From: Candidatus Rokuibacteriota bacterium
GTDB taxonomy: Bacteria > Methylomirabilota > Methylomirabilia > Rokubacteriales > CSP1-6
Reading direction: 5' to 3'
NCBI GenBank assembly: GCA_016209425.1
Contig: JACQWA010000279.1
Coordinates: 1 to 32,083 of the forward strand
Length of the DNA stretch: 32,083 nt
In this document: positions 16,349-24,794 of the stretch, piece after piece
Position numbering within the stretch: position 1 is the first letter of the stretch
Layout of the letters: every line of letters starts with the position of its first letter
The notes under the pieces: generated by a model
What the model was told of the DNA's origin: nothing
Database searches by the model: none
Seen by the model: the letters and a program-made list of their open reading frames with translations, nothing else
Made by a program: the position numbers and the translations under genes

Positions 16349-16783
16349 ATGCTCCGTTTCACCAAGCGGGCCGATTATGGGCTGATGGCAATCAATTATA
16401 TCGTCCTCCAGGGGGAGGACGGGGCGGTCAGCGCAAAGCGGATCGCCGAAGAGTTCGGCATGCCCCCGGAACTTCTCGCCAAGATCCTTCAGCGCCTGGC
16501 GAAGAAGGGGTTCATTGCCAGCCACAACGGCCCCAAGGGGGGCTATGTGCTGGCACGCTCGCCGGAGGAGATCACGGTGGGACAGGTCGTGCGGGCCCTG
16601 GAGGGGCCCATTCATATTGTGAGCTGTCTGGAGGACCTGGACTGCCCGCAGTATTCCCGCTGCAACCTTCGTAGCCCGGTACAGAAGATCCAGGCCAGCA
16701 TCAGCTATCTCCTGGACACGATGACCCTGGCTGAGCTGACCCGCGAAACCGTTCCCATCCAAGACCTCACCACGGTGAATTAG
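16349..16783 (+). CDS. iscR: Rrf2-family iron-sulfur regulator IscR
   Basis: A 144-residue transcription regulator with the Rrf2 winged helix (MLRFTKRADYGLMAINYI, VSAKRIAEEFGMPPELLAKILQRLAKKGFI, HNGPKGGYVLAR). The cluster-binding cysteines are C93, C99 and C105, spaced CX5CX5C as in E. coli IscR (C92, C98, C104). The His that completes the [2Fe-2S] site in E. coli (H107) corresponds to Arg108 here. It heads the isc operon and is preceded by an IscR-like operator, so negative autoregulation by the holo form is expected. The next gene starts 11 bases downstream with a good AGGAGA site. Confidence 0.93.
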   Translation: MLRFTKRADYGLMAINYIVLQGEDGAVSAKRIAEEFGMPPELLAKILQRLAKKGFIASHNGPKGGYVLARSPEEITVGQVVRALEGPIHIVSCLEDLDCPQYSRCNLRSPVQKIQASISYLLDTMTLAELTRETVPIQDLTTVN

Positions 16784-16794
16784 GAGAACCAGTC

Positions 16795-18021
16795 ATGGCG
16801 TTGAAGTTTCCCATTTTCATGGACAGCCACTCCACGACCCCGGTGGACCCGCGCGTGCTGGAGGTGATGATCCCCTACTTCACCGAGAAGTTCGGCCACC
16901 CCGGCAGCCGCAACCATCCCTTCGGCTGGGAGGCGGAGGCCGCAGCGGACAAGGCCCGCGAGCAGGTGGCCAAGCTGATCGGCGCCCGGGATCCGAAGGA
17001 AATCGTCTTCACCTCCGGGGGGACCGAGGCGATCAACCTGGCTCTGAAGGGCGTGGCCGAGATGTACCGGGAGAAGGGCACCCACATCGTCACGACCGGG
17101 ATCGAGCAGCGGGCCGGTCTCGACGTGTGCAAGCGGCTCGAGCGCCAGGGGTACCAGGTCACCTATGTCCCCGTGGGGGCTGACGGCCTCGTCGACGTTG
17201 AGGAAGTCCGCAAGGCAATTACCGACAAAACGATCCTGATCTCCGTGATGTTCGCCAACAACGAAATCGGCACGATCCAGCCGATCGCCGAGATCGGCAA
17301 GCTGGCCAAGCAGAGGGCGATCCTTTTCCACTGCGACGGGACTCAGGCCGTGGGGAAAATCCCCGTAGATGTCGAAGCCATGGCCATTGACCTCCTCTCC
17401 TGTACCGCCCACATGATCTACGGCCCGAAGGGAGTCGGGGCGCTCTACGTCCGCCGCAAGAATCCCCGGGTCCGGATCGCATCGATGATCGATGGCGGCG
17501 GCCATGAGCGTGGAATGCGGTCCGGGACGGTGCCGGTCCCCTTGACAGTGGGTTTCGGCAAGGCGGCCGAGATCTGCCGGGAAGCGATGGCTGAGGAGGG
17601 GGCCCGGTTGAAGGCGCTCAGGGACAAACTCCAGGACAAGATCCTCTCCTCGCTGGACGAGGCGTACCTGAACGGGCATCCGGAGAAGCGGCTCCCCCAC
17701 AATCTCAACGTCTCCTTCGCCTACGTGGAGGGGGAATCGGTCCTCATGGGGCTGAACAAAGAGGTGGCCCTCGCCTCGGGCTCGGCCTGCACCTCCGCGA
17801 CCCTGGAGCCCTCGTATGTGATCGCGGCGCTGGGGGTGGGATCGGAGCTGGCCCACTCGTCCATCCGGTTCGGCCTCCATCGGTTCACCATGGAGGAGGA
17901 GGTGGAGTACGTCGGGGATCGGACGGTCCAGGTCGTCACTCGACTTCGGGAAATGTCCCCCCTCTACGAGCTGGCGAAGGAGGGAGTGGACTTGAAGTCA
18001 ATCCACTGGAAGGCCGAATAG
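16795..18021 (+). CDS. iscS: IscS-type cysteine desulfurase homologue lacking the PLP lysine
   Basis: A 408-residue IscS by sequence along its full length: FTSGGTEAINLALKG, FANNEIGTIQP, CDGTQAVGKIPVD, GGGHERGMRSGTVPVP, ASGSACTSATLEPSYV with the sulfur-carrying C332, and the IscS C-terminus RLREMSPLYELAKEGVDLKSI. Two key positions are changed. Where IscS has SGHKIYGPKG, with Lys forming the Schiff base to PLP, this protein has TAHMIYGPKG, so Lys is Met207. The PLP-stacking His of TEHKAVLD is Gln105 (IEQRAGLD). It should not form an internal aldimine. It may act as a sulfur carrier or scaffold for IscU fed by another desulfurase, since the persulfide Cys loop is intact. An intact desulfurase lies 6 kb downstream. 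It sits second in the isc operon. Confidence 0.93.
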   Translation: MALKFPIFMDSHSTTPVDPRVLEVMIPYFTEKFGHPGSRNHPFGWEAEAAADKAREQVAKLIGARDPKEIVFTSGGTEAINLALKGVAEMYREKGTHIVTTGIEQRAGLDVCKRLERQGYQVTYVPVGADGLVDVEEVRKAITDKTILISVMFANNEIGTIQPIAEIGKLAKQRAILFHCDGTQAVGKIPVDVEAMAIDLLSCTAHMIYGPKGVGALYVRRKNPRVRIASMIDGGGHERGMRSGTVPVPLTVGFGKAAEICREAMAEEGARLKALRDKLQDKILSSLDEAYLNGHPEKRLPHNLNVSFAYVEGESVLMGLNKEVALASGSACTSATLEPSYVIAALGVGSELAHSSIRFGLHRFTMEEEVEYVGDRTVQVVTRLREMSPLYELAKEGVDLKSIHWKAE

Positions 18022-18049: not shown

Positions 18050-18466
18050 ATGGCGTATAGCGAGAAAGTCATTGATCACTACAACAACCCGCGGAACGTG
18101 GGGTCCTTCCCGAAGGAGATCCCGGGCGTGGGGACGGGGCTCGTGGGGGCGCCGGAGTGCGGCGACGTCATGAAGCTCCAGATCAAGGTGAATCTGGATA
18201 CCGGGGTCATCGAGGACGCCAAGTTCAAGACCTTCGGGTGCGGCAGCGCCATCGCGTCGTCCAGCCTGGCCACCGAGTGGCTGAAGGGGAAATCCGTGGA
18301 CGAGGCGATGAAGATCAAGAACACGGACATCGTCAACGAGCTGAAGCTGCCGCCGGTGAAGATCCACTGCTCGGTGCTGGCCGAGGATGCCATCAAAGCC
18401 GCCTTGGCGGACTACCGGGGGAAGTGGGGGAAGAAGGAAGTCGCGGCAGGGGCTGCGACGTCATAA
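18050..18466 (+). CDS. iscU: Iron-sulfur cluster scaffold IscU
   Basis: A 138-residue IscU, the scaffold on which [2Fe-2S] clusters are built. The three cluster ligands are present: C37 (APECGDV, with D39), C64 (FGCGSAIASSS) and C107 (KIHCSVLAEDAI). The LPPVK motif at 100-104, recognised by the HscA chaperone, is intact, which fits the hscB and hscA genes further down the same operon. GAGGAG lies ahead of ATG 18050. All functional residues look normal, so the unusual IscS upstream is not part of a general decay of the operon. Confidence 0.97.
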   Translation: MAYSEKVIDHYNNPRNVGSFPKEIPGVGTGLVGAPECGDVMKLQIKVNLDTGVIEDAKFKTFGCGSAIASSSLATEWLKGKSVDEAMKIKNTDIVNELKLPPVKIHCSVLAEDAIKAALADYRGKWGKKEVAAGAATS

Positions 18467-18505
18467 GGATTGAGGCAACGTTCGACGAAGGAGGGTGAGT
18501 CTCAG

Positions 18506-18832
18506 ATGGCGGTGAATCTGAGCGAAGCGGCTCTGAAGCAGGTCAAGCAGCTTATGGTTGCCCAGAACCTCGAAAACGTCCATCTCCGGATGGGCGTGAA
18601 GGGAGGCGGCTGTTCGGGCCTCTCCTACTCCCTGGAGTTCGACAACGAGGTCGGGCCGCACGACAAGACCTTTGACATCGATGGGGTCAAGGTGGTCGTG
18701 GACGCCAAGAGCTATCTGTACCTGAACGGAACGACTCTGGACTACGTGACCCAGGGGCTCACGGGCGGCTTCACCTTCGTGAACCCCAGCGCCAAATCGA
18801 GCTGCGGCTGCGGGACGTCGTTCTCGGCCTAG
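18506..18832 (+). CDS. iscA: A-type iron-sulfur carrier IscA
   Basis: A 108-residue A-type carrier protein. ATG 18506 (MAVNLSEAALKQVKQLM) fits the family start; an upstream in-frame ATG at 18470 would add 12 unlikely residues. The three conserved Cys are C36 (GGGCSGLSYSL) and C100/C102 (SCGCGTSF). It passes clusters or iron to apo-proteins. A GGAGG lies about 11 bases upstream. The gene is followed by a 150-base gap with three hairpins ending in a strong terminator, so it is the last gene of the promoter-proximal half of the isc operon. Confidence 0.95.
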   Translation: MAVNLSEAALKQVKQLMVAQNLENVHLRMGVKGGGCSGLSYSLEFDNEVGPHDKTFDIDGVKVVVDAKSYLYLNGTTLDYVTQGLTGGFTFVNPSAKSSCGCGTSFSA

Positions 18833-18982: not shown

Positions 18983-19717
18983 ATGACGGAGGCACGGAGA
19001 GGTGAGCAGGTGACCGGGTCGTCGCGGACCCTCTGCTGGAACTGCCAGTCGGCGGTGGGGGGAGAGTACTTTTGTCCCCAGTGCGTCAAGGTCCAGCCGG
19101 CGTCGGTATGGTCGGACTACTTCAGCGTGTTCGGCCTTCCCCGCAAGCTCGGGCTCGACCTCGGCGAGCTTCAGCAAAGGTTCTACGAGTGGAGTCGGAA
19201 GTTCCATCCGGATTTTTTCCAGCGGGCGACGCCCGAGGAGCAGGCCATCAGCCTGGAAAACTCCGCCCTGGTGAACACCGCCTATCGTGCCCTCCGGGAC
19301 CCGATCGCCCGCGTGGAGTACCTGATCGGGTTGGAAGAGGGGGCGGTGAAGGGGATCCCGCCCAGGGCCCCTCGGGACCTCCTGGAGGAGATGCTCGAGA
19401 TGCAGGAGGCGCTGGAGGAAGCCAAGACGTCCGCTCTCGACGCGGAGACGCGAAAGCGCCTCGAGGGCGAGCGCGAGCGCCTCGCCGAGCGACGGAAGGC
19501 CGAGGAGGCCAGGCTGATGGAGGTGGCCGGCGAGTGGGATGCGCTCGTGGGCGCGAGCGACCACGCCTCTCGCGAGCGGGACGCCGTCCGGCGCAAACTC
19601 CTTGACGGAATGAAGGAGATCCTGGCTGTGCGCGCCTATCTGACCACGGTCATCAACGATCTGAGCGAAGCGCTGGGAGAGGAAACGCACACGCATGTCT
19701 CGCATCGTCGGCATTGA
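18983..19717 (+). CDS. hscB: Co-chaperone HscB with N-terminal zinc finger
   Basis: A 244-residue J-protein that stimulates HscA and brings IscU to it. An N-terminal tetracysteine finger CWNC...CPQC (C18, C21, C31, C34) precedes the J-domain, as in mitochondrial HSCB and some bacteria; enterobacterial HscB lacks it. The J-domain includes YFSVFGLPRKLGLDLGELQQRFYEWSRKFHPDFF with HPD at 75-77. The C-terminal helices (RDLLEEMLEMQEALEEAK) match the IscU-binding domain. A long charged helix is inserted at about 150-200. The ATG lies just 9 bases after the terminator T-run with only a weak ribosome site; GTG 19010 is a possible alternative. It overlaps hscA by 23 bases. Confidence 0.92.
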   Translation: MTEARRGEQVTGSSRTLCWNCQSAVGGEYFCPQCVKVQPASVWSDYFSVFGLPRKLGLDLGELQQRFYEWSRKFHPDFFQRATPEEQAISLENSALVNTAYRALRDPIARVEYLIGLEEGAVKGIPPRAPRDLLEEMLEMQEALEEAKTSALDAETRKRLEGERERLAERRKAEEARLMEVAGEWDALVGASDHASRERDAVRRKLLDGMKEILAVRAYLTTVINDLSEALGEETHTHVSHRRH

Positions 19718-21530
19718 CCTCGGCACCACCAACAGCCTCGTCGCGTACATGGAGGGGGAGTTCCCCAGGGTCATCCCCGACGCCGAGGGGCACGTCCTCC
19801 TGCCCTCGGTGGTCGCCTTCACCGCCGACGGGATCCTGGTGGGAGAGGCGGCCAAGCGGCAGCTGGTCCGGAACCCGACGCAGACCATCTACTCGGTCAA
19901 GCGGTTCATGGGGAAGGGGTACGAGGACGTCAAGGAGGAACGGAGGTACTTCCCGTTCCAGATACTGGCCGATCACGAGGTGGTGAGGATCAGGGTGGAC
20001 GAGCGGGAGGTCACGCCGCCCGAGGTCTCGGCGCTGATTCTCAAGGCCTTGAAGGAGCGGGCCGCGACGAGCCTGGGCGAGCCAGTGACTAAGGCCGTCA
20101 TCACGGTCCCCGCCTACTTCAACGATAGCCAGCGTCAGGCGACCAAGGACGCGGGGCGGATTGCGGGGTTGGACGTTCAGCGGATCGTCAACGAGCCGAC
20201 CGCCGCGTCCCTCGCGTACGGGCTTCACCGGCTCAAGCAGGGGATCGTCGCGGTCTACGATCTGGGTGGCGGGACCTTCGACATCTCGATCCTCAGGGTG
20301 AAGGACGGGATCTTCGAGGTGCTGGCCACGAACGGCAACACCCATCTCGGCGGCGATGACTTCGACCGGGCTCTGGTGGACTGGCTCCTGGCCGACATTA
20401 GGGCCCATCACGGCGCCCACCTCGGCCAAGACCTCGAGGCGATGCAGGAACTCCGGCTCGGGGCGGAGGCCGCCAAGTGCCGCCTGTCTTTCGAGGATCG
20501 GACGGTGTTCACGATTCCGTTTCCCCAGCATGGATTCACCTACCGGCGGGAGATCCAGCGCTCGGACGTGGAGGCGCTGATCGAGCCCCTGGTCCAGCAC
20601 ACGCTGGGCCCGTGCCGGTTGGCCCTGGCCGACGCCGGCCTGGGCGCGGAGCAAATTGACGAGGTCGTCCTCGTTGGAGGCTCCACCCGGGTTCCCCTGG
20701 TGAAGCGGCGGGTCCAAGAGCTGTTCGGGAAACCTCCCCACAGCCAGCTGAACCCGGACGAGGTCGTCGCTCTCGGCGCGGCCGTCCAGGCCGACATTCT
20801 GGCGGGCGGCATCACGAACATGCTCCTGCTCGACGTCACGCCCCTCTCGCTCGGCATCGAGACGCTGGGGGGTGTCATGAGTGTGCTGATTCCGCGGAAC
20901 ACCACGATCCCGACCAGCGCCAAGGAACTGTTCACCACCTCTGTCGATGGGCAGACGGTGGTCGATATGCATGTCCTTCAAGGCGAGCGGGAACTCGCCA
21001 AAGACAACCGGTCCCTCGCCCGCTTCGAGCTCCGCGGCATCGACCCGATGCCCGCGGGGATGCCCCGGATCGAGGTGACGTTCCTCATCGACGCAAACGG
21101 CATCCTGCAGGTGCACGCGAAGGAGCTCAGGACCGGAAAGGCCGCCTCCATTGAGGTGAGGCCGTCGTACGGGCTCACCGATGGCGAGGTGGAGCAGATG
21201 ATCGAGGAATCTTTCGTTCATGCCGAAGAGGATATCGCCTCGCGGCTCCTGATCGAGACGCGCAACGAAGCGGACACGGTCGTCCGCGCCACGGAGCGGG
21301 CGCTGGGGCAGGGGAGCGGCCTGATCGCCGAGGACGAAGCGACTCGGATCCAAGAGGCGCTCGCGGCACTGAAGGCTGTCAGCGATGGGGACGACCGGGA
21401 GGCGATTCGTGAGGCAACGGAACGGCTCAACCACGCGACGCTTCACCTGGCCGAGGTCCTGATGGACTCCGCCCTCAAGGCGGCCCTGGCCTCGAAGCGG
21501 GTGACGGAGGCCCTGGAAAAGACAGAGTGA
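19695..21530 (+). CDS. hscA: Hsp70-type chaperone HscA
   Basis: A 611-residue Hsp70 specialised for iron-sulfur transfer. Hsp70 signatures are present: GIDLGTTNS (6-14), AVITVPAYFNDSQRQATKDAGRIAGL, IVNEPTAASLAYG, AVYDLGGGTFDISIL and VVLVGGSTRVPLVK. The substrate-binding domain begins near LLLDVTPLSLGIETLGG. The length fits HscA (about 615) rather than DnaK (about 640 with its acidic tail). Position between hscB and fdx, plus the LPPVK-bearing IscU in the operon, makes HscA the right call. It releases clusters from IscU at the cost of ATP in the cytoplasm. Confidence 0.96.
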   Translation: MSRIVGIDLGTTNSLVAYMEGEFPRVIPDAEGHVLLPSVVAFTADGILVGEAAKRQLVRNPTQTIYSVKRFMGKGYEDVKEERRYFPFQILADHEVVRIRVDEREVTPPEVSALILKALKERAATSLGEPVTKAVITVPAYFNDSQRQATKDAGRIAGLDVQRIVNEPTAASLAYGLHRLKQGIVAVYDLGGGTFDISILRVKDGIFEVLATNGNTHLGGDDFDRALVDWLLADIRAHHGAHLGQDLEAMQELRLGAEAAKCRLSFEDRTVFTIPFPQHGFTYRREIQRSDVEALIEPLVQHTLGPCRLALADAGLGAEQIDEVVLVGGSTRVPLVKRRVQELFGKPPHSQLNPDEVVALGAAVQADILAGGITNMLLLDVTPLSLGIETLGGVMSVLIPRNTTIPTSAKELFTTSVDGQTVVDMHVLQGERELAKDNRSLARFELRGIDPMPAGMPRIEVTFLIDANGILQVHAKELRTGKAASIEVRPSYGLTDGEVEQMIEESFVHAEEDIASRLLIETRNEADTVVRATERALGQGSGLIAEDEATRIQEALAALKAVSDGDDREAIREATERLNHATLHLAEVLMDSALKAALASKRVTEALEKTE

Positions 21531-21883
21531 TGACGTACAAGGTAACGTTTCTCCCTCAGAACATCACGGTCGAGGTGGACCCGGAGAAGTTCCCCCTCCA
21601 GGAGGACGGCCTTCCGGGCTCCATCCTGGACATCGCGCTGGGGAACAACGTCGACCTCCAGCACAACTGCGGGGGCAAATGCGCCTGCACCACCTGCCAT
21701 GTGATCGTCAGGGAGGGGGCGGGGAACCTCTCCAAGATGGAAGAGGACGAGGAAGACCGCCTCGACACTGCCGAGGGGCTGACCCTCCATTCCAGGCTGG
21801 GGTGTCAGGCCGTGGTGAACGGCGACGTGGTGGTGGAAATCCCGCTCTCCGGGCGGGGCGGGCACACGCCTCCCGGCCAATAG
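21530..21883 (+). CDS. fdx: Isc-type [2Fe-2S] ferredoxin
   Basis: A 117-residue adrenodoxin-like ferredoxin that gives electrons to cluster assembly. The ligand block HNCGGKCACTTCHV has the same C-X5-C-X2-C arrangement as E. coli Fdx, including the extra Cys between the ligands. The fourth ligand is in SRLGCQAVV. An acidic helix (SKMEEDEEDRLD) forms the usual docking surface. I prefer ATG 21530, which overlaps the hscA stop as TGATG. GTG 21527 directly in front is also possible and adds one residue. Confidence 0.95.
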   Translation: MTYKVTFLPQNITVEVDPEKFPLQEDGLPGSILDIALGNNVDLQHNCGGKCACTTCHVIVREGAGNLSKMEEDEEDRLDTAEGLTLHSRLGCQAVVNGDVVVEIPLSGRGGHTPPGQ

Positions 21884-21932: not shown

Positions 21933-22139
21933 ATGGGGCTGACCTGGAAGGACGCGGAAGAGATCGCCATGGCGCTCGCGGAGAAACTCCCCGAGACGGA
22001 CCCGTTGGGGATCCGGTTCACCGATCTGCATAGGTGGGTGACGGAGCTCGAAGACTTTTCGGACGATCCGAAGGCCTCCAATGAGGGAATCCTGGAGGCC
22101 ATTCAGATGGCCTGGGTCGAGGAGTACAGAAGTCGATAG
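21933..22139 (+). CDS. iscX: IscX (YfhJ) iron-sulfur assembly regulator
   Basis: A 68-residue acidic protein matching IscX: MGLTWKDAEEIAMALAEKLPETDPLGIRFTDLH, then FSDDPKASNEGILEAIQMAWVEEY. IscX binds IscS and is proposed to act as an iron-dependent regulator or iron donor. It has a GAGGTGG site and is the last isc gene. Its presence matters here because its partner, the IscS of this operon, has an altered active site. A run of seven T directly follows the stop, but no hairpin precedes it. Confidence 0.95.
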   Translation: MGLTWKDAEEIAMALAEKLPETDPLGIRFTDLHRWVTELEDFSDDPKASNEGILEAIQMAWVEEYRSR

Positions 22140-22193: not shown

Positions 22194-22445
22194 CTACCAG
22201 GAAATGACCTGGTCCGCGGAAAAGATCAGGTCCAGCAGATCAGCGTAGGTGAGAATGTCCGCGCCGGGGAGGGAAGACTCCTCGGCGAGACGCTGCACCC
22301 GGACGCCGGAGGGCAGGGGGGGGATTTCCGCGCCCTGCATCAGAACGACGGTGAGCGTCGTGTCGGGCTCGCGACTCTGTCGCCGGATGACCGACAGGGC
22401 GTGGGAGGGGACGGGAGCCTTGAACAGGTGAAGGACGTGGGGCAT
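22194..22445 (-). CDS. DsrH/TusB-like sulfur-relay protein
   Basis: An 83-residue protein (MPHVLHLFKAPVPSHALSVI, then GADILTYADLLDLIFSADQVISW) whose size, LHLFK-type start and final QVISW-type end resemble DsrH/TusB. It contains no Cys at all, so it cannot carry a persulfide and would be a structural subunit. It is the last gene of a three-gene minus-strand operon; its ATG overlaps the stop of the preceding gene (ATGA). DsrEFH/TusBCD complexes hand sulfur between carriers. Its location between two iron-sulfur operons fits such a role, but the exact pathway is unknown. Confidence 0.65.
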   Translation of the reverse strand: MPHVLHLFKAPVPSHALSVIRRQSREPDTTLTVVLMQGAEIPPLPSGVRVQRLAEESSLPGADILTYADLLDLIFSADQVISW

Positions 22446-22804
22446 CAGAACACGATGAACCGCCGACAGCGCCCCATGAGGTCGGCGATCTCGTCCCGGG
22501 AAACCGGGATGAGCGGGTGGCCCTCCTCGTTCCAGTCCGCCGTGTCGGTCGGGATCGCGGACTTCTCGATGTGGAACGGGACCTCCATCTTCCTGAGGGC
22601 CCCTCGGTGTCTGGCGATGTCGTCGCCGTCCACGAGGTCATCAGTGTCCGCGTCCAGCAGATGGGCGGCGGGACCCGTCAGGATGATCGTCACTTCGTTC
22701 TCGCCGGCGGCGACGCCGAGCGCGATCCGCATGGCCTCGTTGGCCCGGTGGGAGGTGCGGGGATCCTCAGAGATGAGGACCAGAACGGGAAGCGATTCGT
22801 CCAC
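22445..22804 (-). CDS. DsrE/DsrF-like family protein
   Basis: A 119-residue protein if started at GTG 22804, which lies five bases after the stop of the gene before it; the frame stays open further upstream but overlaps that gene. It begins with a Rossmann-like strand (LPVLVLISEDPRTSHRANEAMRIALG), continues VTIILTGPAAHLLDADTDDL and ends IADLMGRCRRFIVF. The alternating pattern and context fit the DsrE/DsrF/TusCD fold. The only Cys is C113 close to the C-terminus, not at the usual persulfide position, so it may be a non-catalytic subunit. The family call rests mainly on fold-like pattern and on its two neighbours. Confidence 0.6.
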   Translation of the reverse strand: MDESLPVLVLISEDPRTSHRANEAMRIALGVAAGENEVTIILTGPAAHLLDADTDDLVDGDDIARHRGALRKMEVPFHIEKSAIPTDTADWNEEGHPLIPVSRDEIADLMGRCRRFIVF

Positions 22805-22808
22805 GAGG

Positions 22809-23138
22809 CTAGTTGAGGGCGAGAAAGCGCTCACAGCCGTTGATGAGGTCTGTGAGGACGACGAGGCCGCAATAATTGAAACGATCGGGATCGGAGAGCG
22901 CGGCGTTCCGCTTCTGGCACCCGTAGGCGCAGACAAAGAGCTTGGCCCCGCGGCGGGCGAGCTCCTGGATCTCGGGCCGGTCTTTGGCGAAGACGGCGTC
23001 GTCGATCAGGTAGAGGTAGAGATCGGCACCTCGGTCGAGCGCCGCCCGCGACAGCCCGAGCGCGGTGTTCAAGTTCCCGTGCTCCGGCTTCGTGGAGAGG
23101 AGAAGCCCGAGTTTTCGCTTGGCAAGATCCATGGCCAT
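22809..23138 (-). CDS. DsrE-family sulfur-relay protein
   Basis: A 109-residue DsrE-like protein (RKLGLLLSTKPEHGNLNTALGLSRAALDRGADLYLYLIDDAV, then GAKLFVCAYGCQKRN). The two Cys in CAYGC (C70, C74) sit where DsrE/TusD proteins carry the sulfur-accepting Cys; C90 and C102 follow. Two starts are possible: ATG 23138, or ATG 23132 two codons on. The -10 hexamer ends at 23142, only a few bases from the first ATG, so the transcript probably starts around the second ATG and would be leaderless. It is the first gene of the minus-strand trio and the only one with the expected Cys arrangement. Confidence 0.72.
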   Translation of the reverse strand: MAMDLAKRKLGLLLSTKPEHGNLNTALGLSRAALDRGADLYLYLIDDAVFAKDRPEIQELARRGAKLFVCAYGCQKRNAALSDPDRFNYCGLVVLTDLINGCERFLALN

Positions 23139-23235: not shown

Positions 23236-24393
23236 ATGAACCGTCGCGTCTACCTGGATCACAACGCCTCAACCCCCGTGCACCCGGAGGTGGTGGCCGC
23301 GATGCTGCCCTACTTCGGGGAGTGCTTCGGCAACCCTTCCAGCATCCACGCCTTCGGGCGGGAGGCGCGCGAAGGCCTCGAGATCGGCCGGGAGCAAATC
23401 GCGTGCTTCCTCCGCGTCGGTAAGGAGGAGGTGATCTTCACCTCGGGAGGGACCGAGTCCGACAACCTGGCCATCAAGGGCGTCGCCGGGGCCCGGGGCG
23501 CCGGGCACATCATTACGTCGCAGATCGAACACCACGCGGTGCTCCGGACGTGCCAGTTCCTCGAAAGCCAGGGGTTTGCGGTGACATATCTTCCGGTCGG
23601 CGGGGACGGGGTGGTCGATCCCGACGACGTCAGGTGGGCCATCAGACCCGACACGATCCTGATCACGATCATGCACGCCAACAGCGAGGTGGGGACGATC
23701 CAGCCCGTGGAGGCTGTCGGGGCCATCGCGCGGGAGCGGGGGATCCCGTTCCACGTCGACGCCGTCCAGACCTTCGGCAAGATCCCCATCGACCTCGACG
23801 CCTTCGGCATTGACCTCCTCTCCTTCTCGAGCCACAAGATCTACGGTCCCAAGGGCGTGGCGGGCCTCTACATCCGGAAGCGCACGAAGATGGTGGCCAT
23901 CCAGCAGGGGGGGGAGCACGAGCGCCGCCGCCGGGCGGGCACGGAGAACGTCTCGGGCATTGTGGGGTTCGGGAAGGCGGTCGAGATCCGGTCCCGCGAG
24001 ATGGACGCCGAGGCGGTCCGCCTGACGGCTCTACGGAATCGATTCTGGGCGGGAGTGAGCGCCCGGGTGCCGGAGGTCAGGCTCAACGGGCACCCGACGC
24101 GGCGGCTCCCCGGCACGCTCAACATGTGCTTCAGGCACGTGGAGTCCGAATCCATCGTGCTGGGGCTCGATCTCAAGGGCGTGGGTGTCTCGGCTGGCTC
24201 GGCCTGCACGTCGGGCAACGTGGAGCCGTCGTACGTGCTGGTGGCCATGGGGGTTCCGCTCGACTGGGCTATGGGGGCGGTGCGCGCCACCCTGGGCCGT
24301 GACAACTCGGACGCCGACATCGACTACGTCCTGGAGGTCTTGCCGCCCCTGGTCGAACGGCTCCGAAGTCTGTCCCCGGCCGCGGTGTCATGA
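23236..24393 (+). CDS. Cysteine desulfurase (NifS/IscS family) with intact active site
   Basis: A 385-residue class V aminotransferase-fold cysteine desulfurase. The catalytic residues are all in place: H99 stacking on PLP (IEHHAVL), D and Q in HVDAVQTFGKI, the Schiff-base K201 (SFSSHKIYGPKG) and the persulfide C324 in AGSACTSGNVEPSYVL. It would convert cysteine to alanine and bind the sulfur as persulfide; relatives can also use selenocysteine. It heads an operon with a NifU-like scaffold (ATGA overlap) and CysE, a nif-like grouping. Since the IscS of the isc operon has lost its PLP lysine, this enzyme may be the real sulfur donor for both systems. That is inference. Confidence 0.95.
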   Translation: MNRRVYLDHNASTPVHPEVVAAMLPYFGECFGNPSSIHAFGREAREGLEIGREQIACFLRVGKEEVIFTSGGTESDNLAIKGVAGARGAGHIITSQIEHHAVLRTCQFLESQGFAVTYLPVGGDGVVDPDDVRWAIRPDTILITIMHANSEVGTIQPVEAVGAIARERGIPFHVDAVQTFGKIPIDLDAFGIDLLSFSSHKIYGPKGVAGLYIRKRTKMVAIQQGGEHERRRRAGTENVSGIVGFGKAVEIRSREMDAEAVRLTALRNRFWAGVSARVPEVRLNGHPTRRLPGTLNMCFRHVESESIVLGLDLKGVGVSAGSACTSGNVEPSYVLVAMGVPLDWAMGAVRATLGRDNSDADIDYVLEVLPPLVERLRSLSPAAVS

Positions 24394-24794
24394 ACTATAG
24401 CGAAACGCTCATCAATCACTTCAGGCACCCCCGGAACGCTGGAATGATGCGCGACCATGACGGGGTGGGGGAAGCGACCTTCGACGGCTGTGGCGACCTC
24501 GCCCGGTTCTACCTCAAGGTCATCGATGGTCGGGTGGCCGATGTCCGGTTTCAGACCTATGGGTGCGGGCCCACGATCGCGGCCTCCAGCGCCGGCAGCG
24601 AGTTGGCGGCCGGCCGGCCGGTCGCCGAGCTCCTCACGCTCAGCGAAGCGGAGATCACGGCGGCCCTGGATGGGCTTCCGGCCGAGCGCGTGCACGCGGC
24701 GCGGGTCGTCGCGGGCGCCATTCGGACCGCGGCCCGGGACTACCTGGCGAGGCGGGAGAGGTCGAGCGAAGCGAAGGCGGGGCGGCATGTTTGA
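24390..24794 (+). CDS. NifU/IscU-like scaffold lacking the third cysteine
   Basis: A 134-residue IscU-fold protein ([52 protein letters not shown]). Cys ligands C34 and C59 and the Asp after C34 are present. The third ligand, normally in the HCSVLAEDAI segment, is gone: the sequence reads [11 protein letters not shown], with A103 after H102. The LPPVK chaperone motif is replaced by LPAER, so HscA should not recognise it. It may hold a cluster with other ligands, act as a sulfur acceptor only, or bind another metal. The start overlaps the desulfurase stop (ATGA) and its end overlaps cysE, so the three are translated together. Confidence 0.88.

Follow-up and report, generated by a model that had tools for sequence, protein, structure and literature searches.

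IscS is usually regarded as the component that generates the sulfur used by the ISC machinery. In the 32,083-nucleotide stretch of DNA analysed here (the window), which comes from a family of Rokubacteria, uncultured soil and groundwater bacteria, a complete isc operon encodes an IscS without the pyridoxal phosphate (PLP) lysine. Can this protein still be a desulfurase, and, if not, why is it retained? The comparisons given below point to a real, clade-wide loss of catalytic residues in a bacterial IscS, of single origin, strongly selected and set in a complete isc operon; the protein would most likely be a pseudo-desulfurase retained as a docking hub for IscU and as a persulfide acceptor or cluster ligand. 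No publication on this trait was found in a search limited to the open-access literature.

Substituted and retained residues of IscS

The iscS-like gene (16795..18021, coding part 16795–18018, forward strand) is the second gene of the operon, which comprises iscR, iscS, iscU, iscA, hscB, hscA, fdx, and iscX. Its uninterrupted frame encodes a predicted pseudo-desulfurase of 408 amino acids, the translation including LLSCTAHMIYGPKGVGALYVRR. The product scores 605.9 bits against the NCBIfam IscS model PRK14012 (cut-off 548) and 590.4 bits against TIGR02006, below the cut-off of 643.2. The AlphaFold2 model, run without E. coli IscS in the alignment, has pLDDT 85.8 and pTM 0.87, with low confidence at the Cys loop and residues 229–244, and its TM scores against human NFS1 and E. 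coli IscS are 0.91–0.95; in structural alignments, the identity is 55–56% to NFS1 and 53–54% to E. coli IscS.

Residue numbers were mapped by alignment of the window IscS to E. coli K-12 IscS. The motif His-Met-Ile (17410..17418, forward strand; one occurrence in the window against zero expected) has Met207 (ATG, 17413–17415) for the PLP lysine K206 of E. coli, and the motif IEQRAG (17101..17118, forward strand) has Gln105 (CAG, 17107–17109) for the PLP-stacking H104 and Gly108 for Val/Ile at E. coli position 107. In the motif GTEAI (17020..17034, forward strand), Thr77, which contacts the PLP phosphate, is retained, and Ile80 replaces Asn/Asp of E. coli position 79 in a family-specific manner. 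The equivalent of S203 is Thr, which is fixed in the family and also seen in lysine-containing relatives. All other aligned cofactor, substrate and catalytic residues are present: Thr77, Asn156, Asp181, Gln184, His206, Thr245, and Arg358 correspond to T76, N155, D180, Q183, H205, T243, and R354 of E. coli, respectively, and the Cys loop (17776..17814, forward strand) contains the persulfide Cys332 (E. coli C328). The C-terminal IscU-docking tail (17932..18018, forward strand; E. coli 376–404) is conserved in the family. Thus, the observations of the earlier note, made from the window sequence, that the PLP lysine is replaced by Met207 and the stacking histidine by Gln105, while the Cys loop, Asp, Gln, and the reading frame are intact, all hold in the alignment; in addition, we see further family-specific changes near the cofactor residues in sequence (E. 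coli positions 79, 107, and 203).

Of the features expected of an active desulfurase, the mobile loop Cys is present, and both the PLP lysine and the stacking, thiol-activating His are absent. The E. coli mutants H104Q and K206A each lack desulfurase activity (PMC9978102), and the natural substitution of the family at position 104 is identical to the assayed H104Q. Since each of these mutations inactivates the E. coli enzyme, it is very improbable that a protein altered at both sites still functions as a desulfurase.

Distribution, origin and constraint

Gln105 is found in all 48 distinct IscS sequences of the window's family, and residue 207 is Leu in 42 of them, comprising most relatives, and Met in six. 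Hence the conservation of M207 and Q105 in a clade, which the earlier note had proposed to check, holds for Gln and for the absence of Lys, but not for Met itself. Both His and Lys are present in 75 out of 75 homologues outside the family, and sister families of the same order, whose IscS is 81–83% identical, retain both residues. The trait was seen directly in 51 of the 57 family genomes, by the M/L form of the motif in 49 and by direct reading in two more (G010, G022); the remaining six assemblies contain no complete iscS, and in at least two of these (G005, G011) the contig stops between nifS and the expected iscS site. The M/L-form motif occurs in none of the 38 genomes from other families of the phylum.

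In the tree, IscS of the family falls inside the IscS clade, and not with NifS, SufS or the archaeal type; it nests among lysine-containing bacterial IscS, its sisters being lysine-containing proteins from the same order and from Nitrospira, and thus it lost the lysine independently of the archaeal type. One change suffices on the tree built without columns 105 and 207. These comparisons place the loss of the catalytic Lys and His, as one event, in the common ancestor of a single Rokubacteria family.

Two records are mentioned separately. One genome (G024) carries two lysine-less iscS copies on separate contigs (C26, C231), either by duplication or due to a strain mixture. IscS from a record titled Bifidobacterium breve (L050, CALQBJ020000050.1) groups with Acidobacteriota in the tree, and the record is probably mislabelled.

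The rest of the family IscS is under strong purifying selection. In pairwise comparisons of the window with three relatives, dN/dS is 0.10–0.14 for iscS, 0.07–0.28 for iscU, and 0.14–0.16 for nifS, the value for iscS being lower than that for the adjacent intact nifS in every pair. Among the positions fixed in lysine-containing IscS, 95 out of 103 still have the same fixed residue in the family. Over the family subtree, which spans 5.0 substitutions per site, not one of the nine cofactor, substrate, and Cys positions examined has changed, Gln105 and Ile80 are likewise constant, and residue 207 switches solely between Leu and Met; Cys332 is invariant in every family sequence covering the position. 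Low dN/dS, fixed sites, and the unchanged pocket mean that the gene has not been released from constraint, in line with the earlier note's statement that this is not simple decay. A sequencing error, assembly artefact, or decaying gene might be suspected given that the window's assembly consists of 449 contigs, but the identical trait recurs across many assemblies, in 48 distinct sequences, with low dN/dS and no relaxation at the sites conserved elsewhere; the probability left to this explanation is negligible, and the clade-wide conservation together with low dN/dS rules out error or decay.

Compared to the sister families, eleven changes are family-specific, including H104Q, K206L/M, V107G/S/T, N/D79I, and S203T, and these five are located in or beside the cofactor site by sequence. 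For example, E. coli position 79 is Ile in 45 out of 45 family sequences, and Asn or Asp in 31 out of 33 others. Three of the eleven changes on the family stem fall in the 11 cofactor, substrate, and catalytic sites (p = 0.002, enrichment test); a broader set of neighbouring sites, picked post hoc, is not counted as evidence.

Such a pattern bears on the possibility that, even with the Schiff-base Lys gone, the pocket still carries out PLP chemistry or senses a ligand, e.g., by holding a PLP–cysteine adduct that gates the Cys loop. Every remaining PLP and substrate residue is invariant, Arg358 among them, and the restriction of residue 207 to Leu and Met, along with the fixed Ile80, looks like remodelling; moreover, both E. 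coli mutants, K206A and H104Q, still bind some PLP and accumulate cysteine–PLP intermediates (PMC9978102). However, the proton-transfer and thiol-activation residues are both absent, no lysine has been gained near the site (most lysines that are fixed in the family also occur in lysine-containing relatives), and a structural need could explain the conservation of the pocket. We consider this explanation improbable as it stands.

The isc operon and a candidate source of sulfur

The operon starts with a gene for an iscR-like Rrf2 regulator (16349..16783, forward strand; NCBIfam rrf2_super, 118 bits, over the cut-off), which lies upstream of iscS in both lysine-lacking and lysine-containing families. 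Downstream of iscS, on the same forward strand, are genes for the scaffold IscU with all ligand residues intact (18050..18466; TIGR01999, 215.9 bits, over the cut-off), IscA (18470..18832; TIGR00049, over the cut-off), HscB (18983..19717; TIGR00714, 48.9 bits, cut-off 46.75), HscA (19695..21530; TIGR01991, 742 bits, cut-off 708), the isc ferredoxin (21527..21883; best match TIGR02007, 94.6 bits, below the cut-off of 132), and IscX (21933..22139; Pfam PF04384, 111.8 bits, cut-off 25).

Surfaces for the partners are retained as well. With the IscU interface of E. coli IscS taken from PMC2854127, the IscU contact residues and the C-terminal docking tail are kept in the family IscS, the equivalents of R379, L380, R381, S384, P385, and L386 being present in 45 out of 45 sequences; so are W45, D52, and D65 of the TusA site, and R220, R223, R225, R237, and M239 of the frataxin/IscX site. 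No family-specific change was found in IscU, IscA, or ferredoxin, and IscX has two weak family-specific sites and nothing more.

Between the isc operon and nifS, and divergent from the latter, is a group of three ORFs on the reverse strand (22194–23138): a short DsrH/TusB-like ORF (22194..22445) without a Pfam match, conserved in position and sequence and assigned to its family by eye only, a DsrF-like ORF (22445..22936, with the core from about 22790 down; Pfam DsrE, 30.3 against the cut-off of 22.7), and a DsrE-like ORF (22809..23138; Pfam DsrE, 25.4 against 22.7), in which Cys70, Cys74, and Cys90 are invariant in 20 loci. The next gene, starting about 5.2 kb downstream of the iscS end, encodes a NifS-type cysteine desulfurase in which both His and Lys are intact, the candidate sulfur source (23236..24393, forward strand; TIGR03402, 514 bits, below the cut-off of 530.75). 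Wherever the available locus extends far enough, NifS follows in this same order, and its motifs IEHHA and HKIYG are retained in every relative read. It is followed by a second scaffold of the NifU-N type (24390..24794, forward strand; TIGR03419, 118.8 bits, below the cut-off), which has RVHAA for KIHCS, with Ala at the third cluster Cys of IscU; every relative read shows the same, one sister family among them. CysE is also encoded at the nifS end of the locus, and elsewhere the genome encodes a desulfurase of the SufS kind with the lysine (G000:C71).

The retention of IscS, nearly unchanged in at least 51 genomes despite the lost residues, suggests that it probably receives or positions sulfur made elsewhere. 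According to the explanation that we prefer, and to which we give an even chance, the desulfurase chemistry was lost a single time, and IscS was retained as a homodimeric ISC docking hub whose Cys332 takes persulfide from NifS for IscU. IscS would no longer release sulfur from cysteine and would still dock IscU, ferredoxin, and IscX; the intact NifS of the locus would make the persulfide, the mobile Cys332 would accept it, directly or via a DsrE-type carrier, and the persulfide would then be passed on to IscU. PLP is likely bound without a Schiff base, and its role may be structural. Cys332 probably either accepts persulfide from NifS encoded 5 kb downstream, the source that we infer for the sulfur, or ligates the cluster as in Archaeoglobus fulgidus IscS. 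Three observations count against this explanation: the substrate arginine and the cofactor pocket are kept, which is more than pure docking seems to need, the NifS and DsrEFH genes equally adjoin the lysine-containing IscS of sister families, and NifS has no family-specific change of obvious meaning.

Sulfur liberation and delivery may also be split between two proteins, with NifS making persulfide and the lysine-less IscS, holding PLP or a PLP–cysteine adduct non-covalently, serving as a gated persulfide carrier that feeds IscU; we regard this arrangement as possible, but less likely than not. NifS, the NifU-like scaffold, CysE, and DsrEFH are present in the same arrangement in sister families keeping the IscS lysine, and hence the NifS and DsrE-region genes pre-date the loss. 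The arrival of a new sulfur donor along with the lysine loss is thus ruled out; the pre-existing genes could have made the loss tolerable.

One more use of NifS may be considered. In serine palmitoyltransferase, LCB1 is the inactive half to LCB2, and IscS might similarly pair with NifS as the inactive subunit of a heterodimer. Both genes are conserved in one locus, and Thr245, the cross-subunit PLP contact, is retained. At the same time, IscS and NifS are only 47% identical, the genes are arranged identically in loci whose IscS keeps the lysine, and NifS has no telling family-specific changes (seven weak candidate sites in a comparison with only two outgroup sequences, none of obvious meaning). 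We consider such a heterodimer highly improbable.

With a complete operon and partner surfaces kept and two catalytic residues replaced, the family is a case in which nature has set IscS as a scaffold apart from IscS as an enzyme, and it makes testable both an essential non-catalytic function of IscS and a sulfur route to IscU without the IscS desulfurase. On the practical side, annotation pipelines will label the lysine-less Rokubacteria IscS as active cysteine desulfurases.

Comparison with known systems

The earlier note mentioned an IscS without the PLP lysine from Archaeoglobus fulgidus, and this precedent is real: in that protein, Lys is replaced by Asp, desulfurase activity is absent, and the cysteine serves as a ligand to the cluster on IscU, with which IscS forms a complex; a further archaeal homologue without the catalytic lysine, IscS1 of Methanosarcina acetivorans, has an unknown function (PMC7585200). 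The A. fulgidus protein (PDB: 4eb5, 4hvk; mutant D199K, 4r5f) and the Rokubacteria IscS both lack the PLP lysine and keep the Cys loop. In the alignment, however, they are the reverse of each other: A. fulgidus IscS keeps the stacking His and has lost the equivalents of Q183, H205, and R354, whereas the Rokubacteria IscS has lost the His and keeps these three. Similarly, the archaeal type is recognized by Asn-Asp for His-Lys and the lost substrate Arg, and the window IscS has His-Met and Arg358. Hence the analogy between the two proteins is incomplete.

Still, Cys332 might be used as in A. fulgidus, as a ligand of the [2Fe-2S] cluster being formed on IscU; sulfur would then come from free sulfide and not by way of a persulfide on IscS. 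The two lysine-less archaeal proteins, the inactivity and Cys ligation of one of them, and the invariance of Cys332 in the family are consistent with this; in addition, cluster assembly on E. coli IscU can reportedly draw on H2S when IscS is absent (PMC13015791). On the other hand, the pocket residues lost in the archaeal protein are invariant in the Rokubacteria IscS, and the whole isc operon is kept, including ferredoxin, which suggests that persulfide reduction is still needed. We therefore hold this explanation to be rather unlikely, and favour Cys332 as an acceptor of persulfide.

The archaeal type itself is represented in the same genome by a separate paralog (G000:C400:8400-9635) with the motif SSNDLYG, in which K is replaced by D, H by N, and R354 is lost; its best PDB match is 4eb5. 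The paralog directly follows tusA (L129:8225-9635), and not iscU, the pairing with tusA being seen only in the window's genome; the paralog is conserved in nearly all family genomes and in two sister families. Two out of three IscS/NifS-like class I proteins in the window's genome therefore lack the lysine, by independent routes.

M. acetivorans IscS1 resembles the Rokubacteria IscS in lacking the catalytic lysine, but, unlike it, is archaeal. The closest likeness in organization is to E. coli IscS and human NFS1 (class I, ISC), with which the Rokubacteria protein shares the fold, the operon context, the Cys loop, and the IscU-docking tail; it differs from them by Met/Leu and Gln for Lys and His, respectively, and by Ile80 and Gly/Ser/Thr108, the other PLP and substrate residues being the same.
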